Source: Bacteroidota bacterium
GTDB taxonomy: Bacteria; Bacteroidota; Bacteroidia; Bacteroidales; PUMT01
Assembly (NCBI GenBank): GCA_003554865.1
Contig: PWHJ01000201.1
Location: forward strand, 1 to 56,640
Direction: 5' to 3'
Length of the DNA stretch: 56,640 nucleotides
Under the pieces are notes generated by a model. That model made no database searches, was not told where the DNA came from, and was given only the letters and a program-made list of their open reading frames with translations. This document shows, piece by piece, positions 4,428 to 41,382 of this stretch; the first letter of the stretch is position 1; every line of letters begins with the position of its first letter. A program made the position numbers and the translations under genes.

Positions 4428-6092
4428 GTGAAGAAGTTACATTTATTTGTAATTAAGTCATATATCGCCCCCATGGCGGCGACTTTTTGTATTACCCTTT
4501 TCCTGCTTCTGATGCAGTTTCTGTGGAAATACATAGATGATTTGGTGGGGAAAGGGCTGGAGTTTACCGTTATTGCCGAATTGCTTATATATACGACAGC
4601 CGGACTTGTTCCCATGGCTCTTCCGCTTGCAATATTGCTTGCTTCGATTATGACATTCGGGAACATGGGCGAATATTCCGAACTTACAGCACTTAAGTCT
4701 GCCGGTATTCCTCTTCACAAAATAATGATGCCCCTTATTATACTGATAATAATTATCAGTGGCAGCGCCTTTTTCTTTTCCAATAATGTATTGCCACATG
4801 CAAACCTCAAAATGCGATCGCTTCTTTATGATATTCAGCAGAAGAGGCCTGAGTTGCAGATCCGCGAAGGGGTGTTTTACAATGATATAGATGGTTACAG
4901 CATTAAAATATCCGAGAGGAATTACCATACAAATATGCTATACGATGTTATGATATATGACCATACCTCGGAGGATGGTAATAAGCATGTGACTGTTGCC
5001 GACTCGGGCCTGATGAGAATGACCGAAGATAAATCGCACCTTGTGACCACCTTATACAATGGGCACAATTATATTGAGATGGAGGATATGCAATCACTCG
5101 GCCCGGATCCTACCTTTCCGCACCGTAGAGATGAGTTTGATGAGCAGGTTATTATAATGGACCTAAGCGGATTTGCTCTCGAACGAACTGACGAGGATCT
5201 CTTCAGGCAGAATTATCAGATGATGAACCTGAGCCAGCTGGAGTATTACAGAGATTCATTGTATAATCATATATCAAGGCTGGCTGACAGTTATGTAACC
5301 CGGATGCTTCGTACTAACATTATAAGGCATGAACCTGGCTATTCGGGAAGTACTGACCCTGAAAAGCTGGGAAAAAGGGAGCCTTTTGATATTGTGGCAG
5401 TCGAGGATACCATACCCGAATATCAAAAGGCGGGTGCGTATGAACATGCTCTGACCCAGGCCCGGAGTGCGCGCAGCCAGATAAGCTCAAGCAGGACCAG
5501 CATTGACTGGAATATAAGATATATGAGGCGTCATGAAATGGAATGGCAGCGTAAGTTTACATTGTCCTTTGCCTGCTTTATTTTCTTTTTTATCGGAGCG
5601 CCCCTGGGGGCAATTATAAGGAAAGGGGGACTGGGAATGCCTGTTGTTGTCTCTGTACTCTTTTTCATTTTTTACTATGTCATTGATGTTTCGGCAGAAA
5701 AATTTATAAGGGAAAATGTAATCCTCGCGTTTCCCGGAATGTGGATATCAAGCATTATACTCCTGCCGATAGGGATATTTTTGACTTATAAAGCTGTCAA
5801 TGATTCTTCTATAATGAATATCGACACTTACATAAATGGCGTAAAGAAATTGTTTAACATGGCAGTGAATAACAATAAGAAAGAGCCGGAACTTGTCGGT
5901 TCTTCCGATGAAAATCCTTTTGAAGACCCTTCCGGAGAAAATCCATCTGAGACCCTTTCAGGTAAAAATACTAGTGGAACCTCTTATGGTGAAAACCCTC
6001 CTGAAAATTCTTCCGGTGAAAACCCTGAGGCCCGATCAGGGGAAGATCCCCCTGAAGACCCTTCCGGTGAAAATCCCCCTGATAACCAGTAG
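4428..6092 (+). CDS. LptF/LptG family LPS export permease with repetitive C-terminal tail
   Basis: 554 residues from a GTG start. Three N-terminal membrane segments (about 11-33, 52-77, 101-117) carry the conserved ELTALKSAGIPLHKIM coupling-helix region. A periplasmic beta-jellyroll-like domain (about 120-370) and three more membrane segments (about 376-397, 402-424, 431-453) follow. This is the LptF/LptG topology; the permease pair with LptB2 extracts LPS from the inner membrane. The cytoplasmic tail after residue ~493 is seven 9-residue SGENPPEDP-like repeats, unusual for the family. Which paralogue (F or G) it is cannot be settled here. Confidence 0.88.
   Translation: MKKLHLFVIKSYIAPMAATFCITLFLLLMQFLWKYIDDLVGKGLEFTVIAELLIYTTAGLVPMALPLAILLASIMTFGNMGEYSELTALKSAGIPLHKIMMPLIILIIIISGSAFFFSNNVLPHANLKMRSLLYDIQQKRPELQIREGVFYNDIDGYSIKISERNYHTNMLYDVMIYDHTSEDGNKHVTVADSGLMRMTEDKSHLVTTLYNGHNYIEMEDMQSLGPDPTFPHRRDEFDEQVIIMDLSGFALERTDEDLFRQNYQMMNLSQLEYYRDSLYNHISRLADSYVTRMLRTNIIRHEPGYSGSTDPEKLGKREPFDIVAVEDTIPEYQKAGAYEHALTQARSARSQISSSRTSIDWNIRYMRRHEMEWQRKFTLSFACFIFFFIGAPLGAIIRKGGLGMPVVVSVLFFIFYYVIDVSAEKFIRENVILAFPGMWISSIILLPIGIFLTYKAVNDSSIMNIDTYINGVKKLFNMAVNNNKKEPELVGSSDENPFEDPSGENPSETLSGKNTSGTSYGENPPENSSGENPEARSGEDPPEDPSGENPPDNQ
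5904..6089 (+). repeat. In-frame 27-bp tandem repeats in the LptF/LptG tail
   Basis: Seven degenerate units encode SDENPFEDP, SGENPSETL, SGKNTSGTS, YGENPPENS, SGENPEAR (24 bp), SGEDPPEDP and SGENPPDNQ, running right up to the stop codon. All unit lengths are multiples of three, so the frame is kept. The tail is acidic and Pro-rich and is predicted to be disordered in the cytoplasm. Confidence 0.9.
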
Positions 6093-7634: not shown

Positions 7635-8108
7635 ATGGAGACGACCACCGCCAAGGCAATTGAACTTTTTCGAAGCGGAAATAACTGTGCCCAGTCTGTT
7701 CTCAAAGCCTTCGCACCTTTAATAAATTTTAGCGAATATGATGCCCTGAGGACGGCTTCCGCATTTGGTGGCGGAATGGGAAGGCTTCAGCTAACCTGCG
7801 GGGTGCTCACCGGAGCATATATGGCAATCGGTATAAGGTTTGGGAAAACTACCCCTGAAGATACCGAATCGAATGATCTTACAATTTCACTTGTAAAAAA
7901 GCTTACCAAAGAATTTAAACAAAAGCACGGTTGTACCGGATGCAGAGAACTGCTTGAGGCTGATATGAACACCGAAGAGGGCAGAAGATTCATTGAGATA
8001 AACGACCTTAAGTTCCAAAGATGTGAGAGATATGTCGAGACCGCCTGTAATGTATTATCGGAAATTCTCCAGACAACCCCTATAGAAGATAAAAAGAGAA
8101 ATGGCTGA
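7635..8108 (+). CDS. C_GCAxxG_C_C family protein (putative redox / metal-binding)
   Basis: 157 residues. It carries the cysteine pattern that names the family: NNCAQSV near residue 18, the Gly-rich GGGMGRLQLTCGVLTGA segment, CTGC near 97-100 and a late C near 127, followed by a C-terminal helix with ACNVL. Members are small and soluble, often near redox or metal genes; their biochemical role is not established. It follows ribBA by 14 bases and overlaps fmt by 8 bases, so it is probably co-transcribed. Confidence 0.85.
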   Translation: METTTAKAIELFRSGNNCAQSVLKAFAPLINFSEYDALRTASAFGGGMGRLQLTCGVLTGAYMAIGIRFGKTTPEDTESNDLTISLVKKLTKEFKQKHGCTGCRELLEADMNTEEGRRFIEINDLKFQRCERYVETACNVLSEILQTTPIEDKKRNG

Positions 8109-9063
8109 TACGCGCGTTATATTTATGGGCACTCCCCAGTTTGCGGTTCCTTCACTCGAGAGGATAATCGCGAAAGGGTTTTCGGTGCCCGCGGTGGTTA
8201 CTGCACCTGATAAGGGTGCAGGAAGGGGCAGGGTTTTAAGAGAGTCGCCGGTGAAAAAATTTGCGGTTGAAAAGGGTCTTTACCTGATGCAGCCGGATAA
8301 TCTTAAGGATCCGGCTTTTATTTCCAAAATTAAGGAGCTGGAGCCGGATATTATTGCGGTTGTAGCTTTTCGGGTCCTCCCCGGGGAAGTGTGGTCCCTG
8401 CCGCCTCTTGGAACGGTTAATCTTCATGCGTCCCTTTTGCCCCGTTACCGGGGTGCCGCACCTATTAACCACGCCATTATTAATGGAGAGGAAGTTACCG
8501 GGGTAACCACATTTTTAATTGAAAAACAAATAGATCATGGTCAGATACTTATGCAGCGTGAAGTGCCGATAGGTCCCTCCGAAACCGCCGGAGAGCTGCA
8601 TGACCGCCTCATGCTTGTGGGTGCCGGCTTGCTGGAGGAGACAATTGAGCGTTTAAGGGAAGGTTCTCTCACTCCGGTTCCTCAGGATGAAGCAGGGGGG
8701 GATGATTTGCCTCTCGCTCCAAAGATAAGTAAAAGTGACTGCCGGATTGACTGGACAATGGGAAGGCGCAGTGTGTTTGATTTTATTAGGGGACTCAGTC
8801 CCAGTCCGGCTTCCTGGACTATACTCCATGGAAAAGGGGGAGAGAAAACCACGGTGAAAATTTTTTTCGCAGAGATTCCTGACAGAGATGTTTCTTTAAA
8901 ACCTGGTGAAGTGCTCTCCGATAACTGTAATTATATTTGTGTTGGCTGCGGGGATGGTCCGATTGAAATTAAATCCCTCCAATTGCCGGGCAAAAAGCGC
9001 CTTGCTGTAAAGGAGTTTTTGAAGGGTTTTGACTTTGATGAAGACTCATTTATGGATGACTGA
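8101..9063 (+). CDS. fmt: Methionyl-tRNA formyltransferase
   Basis: 320 residues. The N-terminal formyltransferase domain begins VIFMGTPQFAVPSLE. It has the tetrahydrofolate-binding SLLPRYRGAAPI loop with the preceding NLHAS, and the active-site Asp in IEKQIDHGQIL. The OB-fold C-terminal domain starts near 205. It formylates initiator Met-tRNA using 10-formyl-tetrahydrofolate. ATG at 8101 overlaps the upstream stop by 8 bases. The last ten codons (DFDEDSFMDD) form the first unit of a tandem repeat that continues beyond the stop. Confidence 0.96.
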   Translation: MADTRVIFMGTPQFAVPSLERIIAKGFSVPAVVTAPDKGAGRGRVLRESPVKKFAVEKGLYLMQPDNLKDPAFISKIKELEPDIIAVVAFRVLPGEVWSLPPLGTVNLHASLLPRYRGAAPINHAIINGEEVTGVTTFLIEKQIDHGQILMQREVPIGPSETAGELHDRLMLVGAGLLEETIERLREGSLTPVPQDEAGGDDLPLAPKISKSDCRIDWTMGRRSVFDFIRGLSPSPASWTILHGKGGEKTTVKIFFAEIPDRDVSLKPGEVLSDNCNYICVGCGDGPIEIKSLQLPGKKRLAVKEFLKGFDFDEDSFMDD

Positions 9064-9260
9064 AGAGGGTAAGAAGTTTAGTCTGTATGTTCCGGCTTTG
9101 ATGAAAACTCATTTATGGGCAACTGAGGACGGCAGGATCTTTAGTCTGAATGTTTTCGGTATTGCTTAAGGCTCATTTATGGGTGACAGCCGGGGGCGGG
9201 AAGCTTGGCCTGTATGGTTCCGGCTTTGCTGAAGGCTCATCTCTGGCACCAGAGGAGTGG
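9031..9260 (+). repeat. 63/64-bp tandem repeat starting in the fmt 3' end
   Basis: Units at 9031-9093, 9094-9157 and 9158-9221 plus a partial unit to about 9260 begin with GACTTTGATGAAGACTC-like sequence and share TCATTTATGG and TTTAGTCTG blocks. Unit 1 holds the last ten fmt codons and its stop. Unit 2 would encode GFDENSFMGN followed by a stop in the same phase. Units 3-4 have drifted further. The array fills the convergent gap to the LysM lipoprotein gene. Confidence 0.88.
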
Positions 9261-9269
9261 TTAAAAATT

Positions 9270-10202
9270 CTATCTCAGCTTTATTACTGTACCCGGTTCT
9301 ACCTTCTTGTCCGAATCCATCCCGTTTCGCCTTAACAGTCTTCCGAGCCTGACCCCGTAAAGCTGTGATATGCAGTGCATGGTTTCTCCCTGTCCCACAA
9401 TGTGCTCCTCAATGCCTCTTTCGGCACGGAACCGCTTTGGCTGCAGATATAGTATATCACCGGTTTGTACTTCGTATTCCCGTGGCAGGTCGTTGTAAAG
9501 GTAAAATTCCCATGGCTTCATGTCCAGCTCCCGGGCAAGGCTTTCAATAGTGTCCCCTTCGCCGGCGACAATGTAGTTTATACGGTTTCTTGTGAATATT
9601 TCAATACGCTGCTCTTCTTCAGGGTATTCAATGGTTGACTTTCTTTCCGGCGGACTCATGGGATCTTCAGAATAGCGCTCTCCTTTTTGGTCGAACTTGT
9701 ATAACCCATTTTCCTCTATCAGCCGGATCAGAAGATTTGCATAATTTGGGTTGGTTGCGTACCCAGCTTCCTGAAGTCCACGTGCCCATGCTTCGTAATC
9801 ATAAGGGTCAAGATCGAAAAGGAAGCCGTAACGGGGACGGCCGGTTAAAAACTCTGAGTGGTCCAGAAAAGATTCTTCGGGGTCGCTGTAGCGTCTGAAG
9901 CATTCATTGGGCTCGTCGTCGTCCCGGTAGATCCTTTTACCTGTCCAGTCATGACATTTTATCCCGAAATGGTTGTTTCCCATCTTTGCAAGATTGCTGC
10001 TTCCGTTACCTGACTCAAGTATTGCCTGTGCCAGCTTTATGCTGGCCGGAATACCGGTGCGCTCCATTTCACTAACAGCTATATCGCTGTATTTTTCAAT
10101 GTACTCCTGGCGGCTGGCAGGGACCGGCGCAGGTGTCTGACGAAATATACTGCAAGATGAAACTATTAATGTGAAAAGAAGTAAAATGATCGTGATCCTC
10201 AT
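9270..10202 (-). CDS. Peptidoglycan-hydrolase lipoprotein (GH73 glucosaminidase with two LysM domains)
   Basis: 310 residues. A lipoprotein signal ends at VSSC (C17). The glucosaminidase domain (about 31-175) has the catalytic Glu region ILESGNGSS (E63), then NNHFGIKC and YATNPNYA. Two LysM-like modules follow (about 205-258 and 265-310), each with a YIVAGEGDT or HIVGQGET start. It likely cleaves septal or wall glycan from the outer-membrane face. It is transcribed toward fmt. A TATTTTTG -7 box lies just upstream at 10232-10239. Confidence 0.92.
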   Translation of the reverse strand: MRITIILLLFTLIVSSCSIFRQTPAPVPASRQEYIEKYSDIAVSEMERTGIPASIKLAQAILESGNGSSNLAKMGNNHFGIKCHDWTGKRIYRDDDEPNECFRRYSDPEESFLDHSEFLTGRPRYGFLFDLDPYDYEAWARGLQEAGYATNPNYANLLIRLIEENGLYKFDQKGERYSEDPMSPPERKSTIEYPEEEQRIEIFTRNRINYIVAGEGDTIESLARELDMKPWEFYLYNDLPREYEVQTGDILYLQPKRFRAERGIEEHIVGQGETMHCISQLYGVRLGRLLRRNGMDSDKKVEPGTVIKLR

Positions 10203-16144: not shown

Positions 16145-16193
16145 AGCATGTGCAAGCTTTTCAAGCAAGCAAATGCAAATTAAATCATTAACT

Positions 16194-16979
16194 ATGAGAG
16201 GAATTTTGTTTTTCATTACCCTGTTTTCTGTCTGCTCTTTTTCCCTTGAGGCACAGGAGAAAACCAATCAAACTGACGAAGAGGGTCTCAGGCAGGGGTA
16301 CTGGGAGCAGAGGTACCCAAACGGTAATCTACGCTATAAAGGTCATTTTGTTGACGGAAAACCTGTCGGCGAGCTTATAAGGTATTTTGAAAGCGGGGAT
16401 AAGATGGCCATTATGGATTTTGATAAAACTGGAACTGTTGCAAGAGCCACCCTGTTTTATGAAAACGGCTATCCGGCGGCAGAGGGAAAGTATGTAAATG
16501 AGAAAAGAGACAGTGTTTGGAAGTTTTTCTCCCGGCACCAGGACAGCCTGTTAACGGCCAAAGAGATGTACAATATGGGGGAGAGAGACGGGGTGAGTAA
16601 AACATTTTATCCCGGCGGTGAAGTCTCCCAGACTCTCGCTTATAAAAACGGCCTTCGCCATGGGCAGTGGAAACAGTTTTACGAAGGGGGGCGCCTTAAA
16701 CTTGAGGGGAATTATTATGAGGACAAACGTGAGGGAAGTTTTAAAATGTACAACTCACAAGGTATCAAGGAGGTAGAGGGGAAATATGAGGATAATCTGA
16801 TGCATGGTGACTGGAAATTTTTTAACGAGAGGGGAGATCATCTTTATACTGTCGAGTATAACAGAGGCAATCCGGAGAATGAAGATGAGCTGATAAAAGG
16901 TGAGCAGGAACTTTTCAGGTTCATTGAGGAACAGCAGGGGAAAATACCAGAACCCGATGAAACCGAAAGATTTTTTTAA
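16194..16979 (+). CDS. Secreted MORN-like (YwqK-type) repeat protein
   Basis: 261 residues from the ATG at 16194, chosen because it begins a clean signal peptide (MRGILFFITLFSVCSFSLEA); an ATG at 16173 adds seven residues. About nine 20-25-residue repeats of the type G-x-W-x-x-[FY]-x-x-G-x-L/x-x-x-G-x-Y follow (RQGYWEQRYPNGNLRYKG, RHGQWKQFYEGGRLKLEG and others). This is the MORN_2/YwqK pattern common in Bacteroidota. Exported; partner unknown. The last codons form the first unit of the repeat array at 16952-17047. Confidence 0.85.
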   Translation: MRGILFFITLFSVCSFSLEAQEKTNQTDEEGLRQGYWEQRYPNGNLRYKGHFVDGKPVGELIRYFESGDKMAIMDFDKTGTVARATLFYENGYPAAEGKYVNEKRDSVWKFFSRHQDSLLTAKEMYNMGERDGVSKTFYPGGEVSQTLAYKNGLRHGQWKQFYEGGRLKLEGNYYEDKREGSFKMYNSQGIKEVEGKYEDNLMHGDWKFFNERGDHLYTVEYNRGNPENEDELIKGEQELFRFIEEQQGKIPEPDETERFF

Positions 16980-17047
16980 CCGCACCCGGTGAAACCGTAA
17001 GGTTTTTTAACCGCACCCGGATGAAACCGGAAGTTTTTTTAAAACCG
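16952..17047 (+). repeat. 31-33-bp tandem repeats starting in the MORN-like gene 3' end
   Basis: Three units (about 16952-16983, 16984-17014, 17015-17047) have the form ACCCGGATGAAACCGNAAGG, then a T run and AACCGC. The first contains the last codons and stop of the MORN-like gene. Unit 2 can fold as AAACC-GTAA-GGTTT, a GNRA-type tetraloop with a T tract, like a minimal terminator. The array ends 15 bases before xseA. Confidence 0.85.
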
Positions 17048-23349: not shown

Positions 23350-23741
23350 TCAAGTTAAGTTTAAAGTAAAATGGCTGAACAGCCAAAATATATGCCTCCT
23401 TGTGGCTCCCTTTAATATAGTCCCGCTTTTTCCAGAAAGTGACATGGGTTTTAACGGAAACAACCCTTCTTTATTTAGAATAAGGTGTATTTATTTGATA
23501 TAAAAAAACTGCCGGTCAGCGAAATAACAGGAAGCCCCAATTTAGATTGGGATATAATGACTTATGCAAGAAAAAAAGGAAAGTTTTCAAAAAGAGGTGA
23601 GTTTGAGATTGTTAAAAGTGGTTAATTGATCGGGCAAAATAGGTTTAAATAAATCCCTTTTCTGCCCGAGTGAATTACGTTTCCCCGTAGTAAATCCCGT
23701 TTTCCCCGCACCACCGGTTTGCCTGAAATGCATGGGCACAG
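23350..23741. other. Intergenic stretch with little recognisable content
   Basis: About 390 bases between the trypsin-like gene start and the symporter terminator. Apart from a short possible ORF (23485-23625) I see no gene, promoter box, RNA fold or repeat that I can support. Confidence 0.6.
23485..23625 (+). CDS. Possible 46-aa ORF or gene remnant
   Basis: An open frame from GTG runs 46 codons with a protein-like composition (FDIKKLPVSEITGSPNLDWD then IMTYARKKGKF) and a TAA stop. It has no ribosome site of note and no family I recognise. It could be the tail of a decayed gene. Confidence 0.25.
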   Translation: MYLFDIKKLPVSEITGSPNLDWDIMTYARKKGKFSKRGEFEIVKSG

Positions 23742-23807: not shown

Positions 23808-25319
23808 CTACTCTTCAGATTTTACCTCTTTCATTGCTTCCGCAAGCGAAGTGTCTTTGGTGTAGAATTTTTGCCATTTTTCCGGAGGATCCGGCGGTGT
23901 ACAAAGTGATACGATGATCAGTGCAAGTATGGATGCCGAGGCGGCCGGCAGAATTATATATTCCTCTATTAAAAGCGGTTCCCCCGAGAGGCTTGTCATT
24001 ATTGAGTTGATAATTGTTATTAGCAGAGTTACTCCCATGCCTGTTGCAATTGATGCCACTCCTCCTTTGACAGTTACACGCTTCCAGAGGAAGGCGGCCA
24101 AAAGGGCAGGGGTAAGGCCGGCTCCCACCATTGTGTATGCTGTAAGTGCCATTGCCAGTATGGTTTCAAACTGCGTTAAAAGCAGATATGCCAGCAGGCC
24201 AAGCAAAACTACCATTGAACGCTGAAAAGCGACAATAAACATCCCTTTCGCCTCGGGATTAATGAATCTTTGGTATATATCTCTTGTAAGATTGGTTGAA
24301 GGTGTAAGCAAAAAGCTGTTTCCTGTTGATGTTATAATTGCAACAGATGCGCAAATGAGCAAAAGACCTCCCCACAGCGGCACCCCGACCTCGGAGCTGT
24401 AACGTGCAGTATGCAGTATAATTCGTTCCGAATTTGCTTCCGAGAGGAAAAATTCTGATACAGCCGGCAATGCGTTGAAATGACTGAAAGCAAAAATAGC
24501 AAGGGATGCAAGTGCGGTTTCAACTACTATTGTTCCGATCACCCATATCAGAACAGCTGACTTGGCGGATTTTTCATTTTTGGCGGAGAAAAATTTCTGG
24601 TACATGTTTGATTCTCCAAGTAACAGGAAAAATGTGGGCAAAAAGATCCCCATCGCCCAGAAGAAGTTATGTTCGCCAAAAATTTCAAAATGGGAGGGAT
24701 CAAGTGTGGCTGTTAGGTGTTCGGCTCCCCCAATTGTAGTGTAAACAAGCGGAACGGCTATAAGTACTGCAATTGTGATTACCGCTCCGTTAATAATGTC
24801 AACCGAAACAATTGACATCATGCCTGCAAAAGCGGTGAAAATCACTATAAAACCGGCTGTCAGCAATACTCCCTGCCATTCGGGGATACCGGCCACCAAA
24901 TCAAGTATGAAGCCTCCGGCTCTGAACTGGTAGCCGACTATTGTGGTGTATGCAATTACAATTACAATCGTTCCAAGTATTCTGGCCCACTTGTTGTAAC
25001 GGAGCTCAAGGATATCCGGCACTGTGTATTCGGCTATACGCCTTACTCTTGCTGCAAGGAAAAAAACGATAATGATCGCCACCCAGGCGCCGGCGGCCAT
25101 CCATAACTCGGAAAAACCGACCCTGGCTGCCAGTCCCGCACCGGCCAGCAAGCTGCCGGAGCCCATCCATGTACAAAGAAGAGTCCCGACAAGGCGGTAA
25201 GTGGGAACGGAACGGCCTGCTACCATAAAATCATCCTGTCCTTTGACAACGAAGCTTTTCCATACTGAAATCGACATGAGAAGAACAAGATAGCCAATGA
25301 CAATAATTAAAAAAATCAT
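23808..25319 (-). CDS. Sodium:solute symporter (SSS family)
   Basis: 503 residues with about 13 hydrophobic segments starting at the N-terminus (MIFLIIVIGYLVLLMSISVW). It has the SSS features: an early DDFMVAGR segment, GSLLAGAGLAARVGF in the sodium-site helix, then MVGAGLTPALLAAFLWKR. It imports a small organic solute with sodium across the inner membrane; the solute (amino acid, sugar or vitamin) is not readable. A promoter box and palindrome lie upstream at 25345-25363. The AbgT transporter gene is the neighbour on the same strand. Confidence 0.9.
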   Translation of the reverse strand: MIFLIIVIGYLVLLMSISVWKSFVVKGQDDFMVAGRSVPTYRLVGTLLCTWMGSGSLLAGAGLAARVGFSELWMAAGAWVAIIIVFFLAARVRRIAEYTVPDILELRYNKWARILGTIVIVIAYTTIVGYQFRAGGFILDLVAGIPEWQGVLLTAGFIVIFTAFAGMMSIVSVDIINGAVITIAVLIAVPLVYTTIGGAEHLTATLDPSHFEIFGEHNFFWAMGIFLPTFFLLLGESNMYQKFFSAKNEKSAKSAVLIWVIGTIVVETALASLAIFAFSHFNALPAVSEFFLSEANSERIILHTARYSSEVGVPLWGGLLLICASVAIITSTGNSFLLTPSTNLTRDIYQRFINPEAKGMFIVAFQRSMVVLLGLLAYLLLTQFETILAMALTAYTMVGAGLTPALLAAFLWKRVTVKGGVASIATGMGVTLLITIINSIMTSLSGEPLLIEEYIILPAASASILALIIVSLCTPPDPPEKWQKFYTKDTSLAEAMKEVKSEE

Positions 25320-37121: not shown

Positions 37122-37168
37122 TCTAATATAGGATCAAAAAGAAGGCAATAAAATTTTGAGGGTTGTTT

Positions 37169-40100
37169 ATGTCAGAAGTCACAAAAAAAACAAAACGTCT
37201 CAGTAAAGTCGCAAGGGAGTTTAACCTGGGAATCCAGACAATAGTTGATTACCTTAAAAAAAAGGGTTATGTAGTTGATGCAAACCCCAATACTAAGGTA
37301 AGTGAGGAACAGTATACCCTTTTATTAAAGGAGTACAGCTCAGAGATAAAAGTAAAGAAGGAGTCTGAAAAAGTCAGTTCCCGAATTTCCAGGGAAAGAA
37401 AAGAGGCGTTGTCGATTGACGATGTGCGCAAGGAAAGTGATGAGGGCGACTATGAGGCAGGTGACAGTGAAGACCAGGTGCTGATAAAGGAAACTTCCGG
37501 CAAAAAACCGGCATCTCCTGAAAAATCTCCTGAAAAAGCTGAAAAGCCGGAAGAAGAAAAAGAGAAGCCAACAGGTAAGAGGGAGGCTGATGAAGAAAAA
37601 GAGGTTCAGGCAGAGGAGAAGCAAAAAGAAGAGGAGAGTACTTCAAATATAAAAATTGTGGGCTCCATAGATCTTGAGTCTGTTCAAAAAAAACCTGCCA
37701 GGCAGAAAAAAGAAGCTAAAGAGGAGCCCGCCGCTGGGTCCGGGGAGGAAGAACCAGTCCCGGAGAAGAAGGCTGAAAAGCCTGAGAAGAAGGCTGAAAA
37801 GCCTGCCCCTGAGAAGAAGACTGAAAAATCTGAGAAGAAGGCTGAAAAGCCTGTTTCTGAAACAAAGAAGGAGAAACCTTCTGAAGAAGAGACTAAAAAG
37901 CAAAAATCAGATACTGTTTCCGCTGCCACAGATCAGGGTGTCGATGAGAAGAAAAAATCACCTGAAAAACCTTCAGAAGAGAAAAAAGAATCACCTGAAA
38001 AAACAGTGGAGGAGAAGAAAAAAACACCTGAGAAGACCCCGGAAGATGTTTATAAGCCCGAAATAGAAAAGCTTAGCGGGGTAAGGGTGGTTGGCAAAAT
38101 TGACCTGCCTTCACAGGAGGAAAAGAAAAAAGGTGAGACTTCCGGTCAGGAGCAATCTAAACCCAAAAAGAAAAGAAGGAAACGGATCCGTAAGGATGAC
38201 CGTAAAGTCTCAGTAGAAGGTAAGGAGCAGAAAAAAGAGCAGCAGAAGAAAACACGGGATGAGGCTCCCAAGAAGAAAAGCAAAAAGAAAAGCAAACCGG
38301 TCAGACCTGAGATAAGCGAAGAGGACGTTCAGAAACAGATCAAGGACACTCTTTCAAGGCTTACATCCAAGGGAAAATCAAAAGGGTCCAAATACAGAAA
38401 GGAAAAACGTGAACAGATCAGTGAAAAACAGCGTGAAGATGCACAAAAACAGGAAAAGGAAAAGAATGTACTGAAAGTCACAGAATTTGTCACTGTTAAC
38501 GAACTTGCCAACATGATGGATGTTCAGGCAACCGATGTTATTTCCTCTTGTATGAGCCTTGGCTTGTTTGTTTCAATCAATCAGAGGCTGGACGCGGAAA
38601 CAATTTCTCTTGTAGCCGAAGAATATGGGTATAAGACTGAATTTATAAGTGTTGAGCTGCAGGATGACGTTGTTGAGGAAGAAGACGATCCCGAAAACCT
38701 CGAGCCTCGTCCCCCGATTGTTACCGTTATGGGTCATGTTGACCACGGGAAAACCTCTCTTCTCGATTTCATAAGGCATGCTAATGTAATTGGCGGAGAG
38801 GCGGGAGGTATAACCCAGCATATAGGCGCATACGGTGTAACTATTGAAAACGGGAAGAATATTACTTTTCTTGATACTCCCGGTCACGAAGCCTTTACAG
38901 CAATGCGTGCCCGCGGCGCAAAAATAACAGATGTGGCGATTATTGTGATTGCCGCCGATGACAGTGTTATGCCCCAAACCGTCGAGGCAATAAACCATGC
39001 CCATGCTGCCGGTGTTCCTATTGTTTTTGCCATAAACAAGATAGACAAACCCAATGCCAGCACCGATAAGATCAGGGAACAGCTGGCCAACATGAACTTC
39101 CTTACAGAAGACTGGGGAGGGAAATATCAGGTTCAGGAAATTTCTGCCAAGCAGGGGAAAAATATTGAGGAGCTGCTTGAGAAAGTATTGCTTGAGGCGG
39201 AGATGCTTGAACTGAAAGCAAATCCCAACAGGAAAGCCAGCGGAACGATTGTTGAGTCTTCACTTGACAAGGGAAGAGGTTATGTTGCCACCGTATTGGT
39301 TCAGAATGGAACATTAAAGGTTGGCGATCTTGTACTTTCGGGCAAATACTATGGTCATGTTAAAGCAATGTACAATGAGCGGGGGAAACGTATTTCCGAA
39401 GTAGGACCTTCATCGCCTGCACTTATACTTGGGTTGAACGGAGCACCCCAGGCAGGTGAGAACTTCAATGTTATGACAAGTGACCGTGAGGTCAAGGAGC
39501 TTGCCAATAAAAGGGAGCAACTGGAAAGAGAGCAGGGATTGCGTGCACAAAAACATATAACCCTTGATGAGATTGGACGCCGTATAGCAATAGGAAACTT
39601 CCAGGAGTTGAATATTATAATTAAGGGAGATGTTGACGGCTCGGTCGAAGCTCTTGCGGATGCAATAAGTAAGCTTTCAACAGAGCAGATACAGGTAAGG
39701 ATAATTCACAAAGCTGTCGGCCAGATATCCGAATCGGACATTCTTCTGGCTGCCGCTTCGAACGCAGTAGTTCTCGGGTTCCAGGTAAGACCCTCTATGA
39801 GTGCAAGGAAGCTGGCTGAAAAGGAGGAGATCGATATCCGTATTTACTCAATTATATATGATGCAGTCAACGAGATAAAATCGGCCATGGAGGGAATGCT
39901 CAAGCCCGAAATAAAAGAGGAGGTTGTTGCAACTCTTGAAATTAGGGAGGTGTTTAAAATATCAAAAGTAGGCCGGGTTGCCGGTTGCTTTGTCAAAGAC
40001 GGGAAGATAGACCGCAATTCCAAGGTAAGGGTTATCCGTGACGGGATTGTTGTTTACACAGGCAAGCTGGGTTCTCTCAAAAGGTTCAAGGAGGATGTAA

Positions 40101-40216
40101 GGGAAGTTTCTGCCGGGTATGAGTGCGGCCTCAACATCGAAAACTTCAATGATATAAAAGTTGGGGATATAATTGAAGCCTGCAAGGAAGTAGAGGTCAA
40201 AAAGACCCTTGAGTGA
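37169..40216 (+). CDS. infB: Translation initiation factor IF-2
   Basis: 1015 residues from the ATG at 37169 (an in-frame TTG two codons upstream is ignored). An N-terminal helix, then a very long Lys/Glu/Pro-rich region (about 75-430) with EKKAEKP-type repeats, a second IF2-N element, the G domain with GHVDHGKTS starting near residue 522, DTPGHEAF and NKIDKP, and domains II-IV. It positions initiator tRNA on the 30S subunit. The final codons (VKKTLE, stop) form the first unit of a repeat array that runs to thiL. Confidence 0.97.
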
Positions 40217-40350
40217 TCGCCCGGGAATTTTCCAAAAAAACCTGGAAGTGGTGATCAAGCAGTGAATTTTCCAAAAAAGACCCTGGAGGTGGTCATCAAG
40301 CCGGGATTTTTCCAAAAAAGACCATTTAATGATTATCCTGGATTTTTTCC
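40199..40350. repeat. About 40-bp repeats joining the infB and thiL 3' ends
   Basis: Units at 40199-40233, 40234-40272, 40273-40313 and 40314-40350 share AAAAAAGACCCTGGAGGTGG, then GATCAAGC and GGAATTTTCC. Unit 1 includes the infB stop and unit 4 encodes the last residues of thiL on the other strand (LGKNPG). The whole convergent gap is therefore built from one repeat. Confidence 0.88.
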
Positions 40351-41382
40351 AAGAGGATTCCATCCTTTCGAGGATAGCTGAATAATAGAACCGTCAGGTG
40401 TTACCAGGTTTAACCCCGATCCTTTGGCGGTAATGTGTCCTATCGGTTTTATAAAGGGAACATCCTGGAGTTTTTCAAAATCCTCCTGGGAGACTGTAAA
40501 AAGCAGCTCATAATCCTCACCACCGTCAAGTGCAGCAGTCAGGGGTTCGATCTTGAGTTCCTCCCCAACCTCTTCAGTTTCCTTGTGAAAGGGAATATGC
40601 CCGGCGAAAAGCTTGCACCCTTTCTCCGACTGGGAGCAAATATGGTTTATCTCGGAAGACAACCCGTCGGAAATATCAATCATAGCTGTAGGCAAAACTT
40701 TTTTTTCCCTTAACACGTCAATAACCTCTTTTCTTGCCTCGGGTTTCAATTGTCTTTCCAGTACGTACTCGTAACCTTCGAGTCCGGGCCTGATCCCGGG
40801 GTCATCAAGGAACAGCTTTTTTTCTCTTTCCAGAATCTGAAGACCCAAATAGGAAGCTCCCAGGTCTCCCGATACACAAATGATGTCGTTTTCCCGGGCT
40901 CCGTTTCTGTAAACAATCTCTTCCTTTGAGATCTCACCCAATGCTGTTATGCTTATTGCCATGCCTGTTAGCGAGGTGGTAGTATCACCTCCTGCAATGT
41001 CGACACCATATTTTTCACATGCCAGCTTTATTCCATCATAAAGTTCATCAATCTGTTCAAGTGAAAATTTTGAGGATATGGCTATTGAGATTATCACCTG
41101 CATGGGATACCCGTTCATGGCAAAAATATCTGAAAGATTAACTGTAACGGCTTTGTAGCCGAGGTGTTTTAACGGACTGTAAACCAGGTTAAAATGGATT
41201 CCCTCCATTAATATATCGCTTGTGGCAACTACCAGTTTGTTCCGGTAATCCAGAATGGCGGCATCATCGCCTACCCCTTTCATTGTCTCTTTGTGTTTTA
41301 TCTTAATATCACCTGTAAGATGACTTATAAGTCCGAATTCCCCGAGCTCCGACAGTTCCGTTTTTTTTTCCTTATCTCCCAT
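40333..41382 (-). CDS. thiL: Thiamine-monophosphate kinase
   Basis: 349 residues. It has GVGDDAAILDY, ATSDILMEGIHFNL, IAGGDTTTS, CVSGDLGASYLGLQIL and DGGEDYELLFTV, the ATP/metal and substrate motifs of ThiL, which makes thiamine diphosphate. The C-terminal residues LGKNPG are encoded within the repeat array shared with infB. It diverges from the suf operon. No TPP riboswitch was seen. Confidence 0.95.
   Translation of the reverse strand: MGDKEKKTELSELGEFGLISHLTGDIKIKHKETMKGVGDDAAILDYRNKLVVATSDILMEGIHFNLVYSPLKHLGYKAVTVNLSDIFAMNGYPMQVIISIAISSKFSLEQIDELYDGIKLACEKYGVDIAGGDTTTSLTGMAISITALGEISKEEIVYRNGARENDIICVSGDLGASYLGLQILEREKKLFLDDPGIRPGLEGYEYVLERQLKPEARKEVIDVLREKKVLPTAMIDISDGLSSEINHICSQSEKGCKLFAGHIPFHKETEEVGEELKIEPLTAALDGGEDYELLFTVSQEDFEKLQDVPFIKPIGHITAKGSGLNLVTPDGSIIQLSSKGWNPLGKNPG

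Follow-up and report, generated by a model that had tools for sequence, protein, structure and literature searches.

What are the repeated units that follow fmt in this Bacteroidota genome, and why does the end of a gene for methionyl-tRNA formyltransferase recur past its own stop codon? We addressed this question in a window of 56,640 nucleotides (the whole of the stretch analysed, contig PWHJ01000201.1), to which coordinates refer unless another contig is named. The initial annotation had described the 3' end of fmt as repeated past the stop in tandem units of 63/64 bp, about three and a half in number, the first being the end of fmt itself. Two repeat finders agree with this description. 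TRF reports an array at 9033-9240 (period 64, 3.3 copies, 73% matches, score 213). The second program places a 70-nt copy at three positions (9020, 9083, and 9147; 71% to the first) and a 30-nt core at four (9026, 9089, 9153, and 9217). The cores are spaced by 63, 64, and 64 nt and show 73-87% likeness to the reference copy. Overall, the 63/64-bp unit is present in ~3.3 to 3.5 copies of ~70% identity, spanning 9026 to ~9246-9265 (Table 1). The outcome that the initial annotation named as its refutation, units no more alike than shuffled sequence, did not occur: the best 120-nt stretch at one lag in 9020-9265 gives 70 matches, compared with a mean of 46.3 (sd 2.3) and a maximum of 55 in 1,000 dinucleotide shuffles. 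Likewise, the last 60 nt of fmt align to the gap behind them with a score of 52.5, equalled by none of 500 gap shuffles. The array is therefore a tandem repeat of the minisatellite-like class, in which units of ~10-100 bp lie head to tail.

Table 1. Positions in the window of the fmt array, its flanking genes, and two further gene-end arrays.
Feature	Position	Strand	Description
fmt, methionyl-tRNA formyltransferase	8101..9063	+	ORF; Pfam Formyl_trans_N 1e-36, Formyl_trans_C 3.4e-23
Unit 1, 63 nt	9026..9088	+	Last 38 nt of fmt with TGA, plus 25 nt beyond
Unit 2, 64 nt	9089..9152	+	In the fmt frame, GFDENSFMGN and stop; not translatable in its present form
Unit 3, 64 nt	9153..9216	+	Outside the fmt frame
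Unit 4, partial	9217..9265	+	Match clear to ~9246, then weak
Glucosaminidase/LysM gene, convergent	9270..10202	-	Pfam; tblastn match at 12/13 family fmt loci
MORN-repeat gene array	16945..17042	+	End of gene 16173..16979 (PDETERFF and stop), period 31-32, 2.9 copies
infB/AIR-synthase-like array	40199..40350 (by eye; TRF 40221-40323)		Period 41, between convergent genes

The same junction was compared in relatives. In the family sample, fmt was matched in 13 of 16 genomes, the other 3 showing no match. The convergent glucosaminidase/LysM neighbour is conserved at all of these loci except the 13th (L106), which is incomplete. The gap between the two stop codons measures 206 nt here, 123 nt in G001, and 4-71 nt in the other 10 family loci. 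Once three units (63 + 64 + 64 nt) are subtracted, 15 of the 206 nt remain, which is within the usual range of the family, so the spacer is the array and was made by duplicating the fmt end. The fmt C-termini finish near the same place (LRGFSFDESACFG in G002, RGCSFGNSAFLK in G001, and LKGFDFDEDSFMDD here, each followed by the stop). Unit 1 occupies the place of the relatives' C-terminus, which indicates that it is the original and that copying proceeded outward from the gene.

The array is absent from both other genomes of the genus that were compared, although G001 may carry a single weak copy of its own fmt end. More broadly, 110 fmt loci were submitted to ungapped repeat scoring (L009-L118, some genomes twice) and 105 could be scored. 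This locus ranked top with 35.2, the runner-up reached 18.0 with a repeat lying entirely behind its stop, and no comparable array was found at any other scored locus. In a gapped test, the weak copy of G001 lies 67 nt downstream of the fmt end, over its stop, with 21 of 29 positions identical (9 of 500 shuffles as good), and perhaps represents an independent, decayed event. The looser survey of gene ends described below flagged this copy as well. An ancestral array common to G001 and this genome was rejected, because the two gaps show no match to each other: 308 of 500 shuffles do equally well. We also rejected a unit that would hold the end of the convergent glucosaminidase gene as well: the ends from G000, G001, and G002 score 13.5, 18.0, and 16.0, with 737, 184, and 398 of 1,000 shuffles as good, respectively.

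Pairwise identity between units is 68-81% where they correspond to fmt coding sequence, falling to 37-71% elsewhere in the unit, and the duplication is therefore probably old. We then considered whether the copies encode anything. As the initial annotation had noted, unit 2 encodes GFDENSFMGN plus a stop in matching phase, which can be read directly from the sequence. The further suggestion that this represents a spare fmt C-terminus fails at the route by which a ribosome would reach it. Past the TGA, the fmt frame runs AGA GGG TAA and then GAA GTT TAG, placing two in-frame stops ahead of unit 2, and no ATG, GTG, or TTG start occurs in this frame between those stops and GFDENSF. Consequently, unit 2 cannot be translated as it stands. 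The 64-nt spacing after unit 2 breaks the phase, leaving units 3 and 4 outside the fmt frame. A related explanation is that the units are what remains, after decay, of an originally longer fmt or of a small independent gene built of 21-residue repeats. Units 1 and 2 lie 63 nt apart and yield similar 21-residue peptides in another frame too, as this explanation would require; however, no frame survives the subsequent 64-nt spacing, fmt stops at a similar position in relatives, and 10 family loci, with gaps of 4-71 nt, have no space for such a gene. We regard it as very improbable.

Alternatively, selection could be maintaining the units as a repeated element that acts as RNA or DNA, such as a terminator, a stabiliser of the 3' UTR, or a binding site for a protein in the space between convergent genes. 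The likeness of the four 30-nt cores, the better conservation of the core than of the rest of the unit, and the position of the array between two convergent stops all point in this direction. Among units 2-4, the part resembling fmt coding sequence is identical at 26/38, 25/31, and 24/31 positions and the rest of the unit at 13/24, 7/19, and 7/19, a comparison in which unit 4 is partial and may end there. This better-kept core is the sole result from the array that speaks against pure drift, which does not predict it. Structure, in contrast, speaks against it. Compared with 200 shuffles, the fold of the array has z-scores of 0.33 and 1.70 on the two strands, with 124 and 193 shuffles at least as stable, and the array contains no terminator-like site, no Rfam match at gathering score, and no inverted repeat detectable by the repeat finder. 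It thus shows neither the stable stem nor the known family expected of a structured RNA or terminator repeat, and the selection for a repeated RNA structure raised in the initial annotation finds no support here. Moreover, a whole-genome search with 9000-9290 recovered, besides the locus itself, only partial matches of at most 34 nt (the best 29 nt, E 0.018), so that the fmt unit does not belong to a MIRU-like dispersed family with related copies at many genome places. The lack of a comparable array at other scored fmt loci, with G001 having a weak one at most, further argues against a selected element. We consider this explanation unlikely, though less so than a decayed reading frame.

Two further arrays in the window lie at gene ends. 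In the MORN-repeat gene, the second unit retains the codons for PGETVRFF and the TTAA of the stop with one T fewer, which puts the stop out of phase. The G002 counterpart, located before xseA, ends in PDETERFFNMR and a stop with a 15-nt gap and carries no array. The other array fills the 116 nt between infB (37163..40216) and a convergent AIR-synthase-like gene (40333..41382, Pfam AIRS), which we take to be thiL, with 41-bp units. Among 15 other infB loci, an AIR-synthase-like neighbour was found in 2 (G001 and G002), where the stops abut with a gap of 0. The two inner units resemble both their own infB end (1 of 1,000 shuffles as good) and their own thiL-like end (3 of 1,000), although these shuffles preserved base composition only and the units contain A and T runs. 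A match of the inner units to the G001 and G002 junctions was not significant (295 and 506 of 1,000 shuffles as good).

Stop-spanning duplications also occur on other contigs of the genome, at L141 (Pfam Beta-lactamase) and L186 (MotA/ExbB). Over 907 kb with 718 ORFs, a script counted 6 stop-spanning cases; after reading, the count is 5 of 718, with infB, whose array the script had classed as intergenic, added by hand. L138 was removed as it looks by eye like two tRNA genes, and L142 as its array lies mostly between two genes. A possible sixth case, L134 (27 nt, AT-rich), is absent from the script's stop-spanning set. Relatives contain such arrays as well. In G001 (L238:14726-14870), the end of an SSF symporter gene (EVKSDT and stop) is present by eye in about three copies; in G002 (L230:4478-4671), a 21-bp array of EKFGSNR units runs through the stop of a nucleotidyltransferase-family gene into the gap; and G036 has one stop-spanning case at L183. 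The repeated duplication at gene ends, by slippage or a similar process, that the initial annotation had proposed is therefore supported, also at other genes of this genome.

Some related observations were made in passing. In this genome, the gene that shares Pfam family and length with the SSF symporter of G001 (23808..25319) has no such copies by eye, but a 21-bp array lies further downstream (23650-23708). In the LptF/LptG-family gene 4428..6092, ~6.8 in-frame units of 27 bp at 5902-6082 form the C-terminus almost to the stop. Outside predicted genes, L135:81-210 carries 2.8 copies of a 46-bp unit at 94%, an identity that makes this array younger than the one behind fmt. We set aside a CCGG motif noted in the arrays, as it comes from a short-word count only.

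Gene 3' ends serve some integrases as targets, and copies of these ends are left behind. The fmt units might accordingly be att-site scars of a mobile element that targeted and restored the fmt 3' end through repeated integration and loss. However, the whole unit repeats at an even spacing of 63/64 with no cargo room between units, and unit lengths and sequences differ at the other gene ends of this genome. We give this explanation almost no weight.

We next asked whether this genome is special. In the first test (score at least 34), 4 of 333 gene ends scored here, compared with none in any of five permutations and with 1 of 602 ends across six other genomes. A looser test on more sequence (p ~0.005) detected 16 of 615 ends, 7 of 599 starts, and 5 of 460 mid-gene places here, the infB and thiL-like ends among the 16 being one array; elsewhere, it detected 18 of 1,328 ends, 4 of 1,251 starts, and 3 of 996 mid-gene places. 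Ends exceed starts overall (34/1943 versus 11/1850, p 0.0013) and also outside this genome (p 0.0045), with end counts perhaps inflated by low-complexity sequence after genes, since the shuffles kept only base composition. A special status for gene-end copies in this genome is not firm (16/615 versus 18/1328, Fisher p 0.06) and is lost at scores of at least 40 (4/615 versus 5/1328, p 0.48). At that threshold, ends do not exceed starts here either, with 4 of each, and the start at 17021 is the MORN array seen from the other side. Arrays inside genes are more common here (20 in 907 kb versus 10 in 1767 kb elsewhere, p 0.0003). The comparison genomes were unevenly sampled and partly from other phyla, and 3 of the 5 stop-spanning cases come from the one chosen window; we therefore restrict the claim to a repeat-prone genome. 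A broader proposal is that this genus multiplies gene 3' ends through a lineage-specific process, perhaps a habit of repair or replication where transcription ends, with stops, and convergent junctions above all, as hot spots for coding-derived intergenic DNA. We regard this as doubtful.

The periods of the arrays differ by location. Of the within-gene arrays, 18 of 20 here and all 10 elsewhere have lags divisible by 3; at gene ends, the lags (63/64, 32, 41, 49, and 68) are mostly not multiples of 3. This pattern is as expected if frame filtering acts on coding arrays only.

The fmt array is most probably the product of neutral tandem duplication across the fmt stop codon, by slippage or unequal exchange, which left the protein intact and was followed by decay. 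A segment of ~64 bp across the stop codon would have been duplicated head to tail and have grown to ~3.5 units by replication slippage or unequal exchange. The extra copies would then have drifted to ~70% identity, and a conserved gap between convergent genes, originally some tens of bases long, would have widened to 206 bases. With translation ending in the first copy, fmt is unaffected, the extra copies are cheap, and a stop-spanning duplication is free in its unit length. The data establish the array, its source in the fmt end, the conservation of the neighbour, and the gap lengths of relatives. We infer the molecular step, slippage or recombination, and also neutrality, the latter from the lack of structure, the absence in relatives, and the divergence of the units.

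The fmt array belongs to a known kind, the intergenic minisatellite-like arrays. The nearest case that we found in the literature is the rnc-fpg1 repeat (VNTR3239) of the Mycobacterium tuberculosis complex, where the gap is 279-358 bp compared with 1-54 bp in other tabulated mycobacteria and the array starts 40 bp past the stop and varies between strains (PMC2734929). Both are lineage-specific arrays with units of tens of bases that swell a gap between conserved neighbours. Unlike the rnc-fpg1 array, for which the available text mentions no gene-end copying, unit 1 of the fmt array is the gene end with its stop; and whereas the former is strain-variable (PMC2734929), the fmt array is known from one genome and its units have already diverged. 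MIRU elements (40-100 bp, at 41 places in M. tuberculosis H37Rv) are similar in unit length and intergenic place (PMC2734929). However, they form one dispersed family (PMC2734929), whereas the fmt unit, which our genome-wide search covered, has no dispersed copies and the other gene-end arrays here have different units. Among the best matches of a literature search on tandem repeats and duplications associated with stop codons or with convergent genes, this very event was not found, which is no proof of its absence.

In scale, the finding is a small point of genome evolution rather than a new system, and the array bears no sign of function. Of the cases in this genome, the infB/thiL-like junction is the cleanest: the stops abut in both same-genus relatives (a gap of 0), whereas 116 nt separate them here, in units resembling both gene ends. 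A duplication that spans a stop codon leaves the protein intact and can therefore persist, and these loci provide a clear example of a compact bacterial genome gaining spacer DNA from the ends of its genes.
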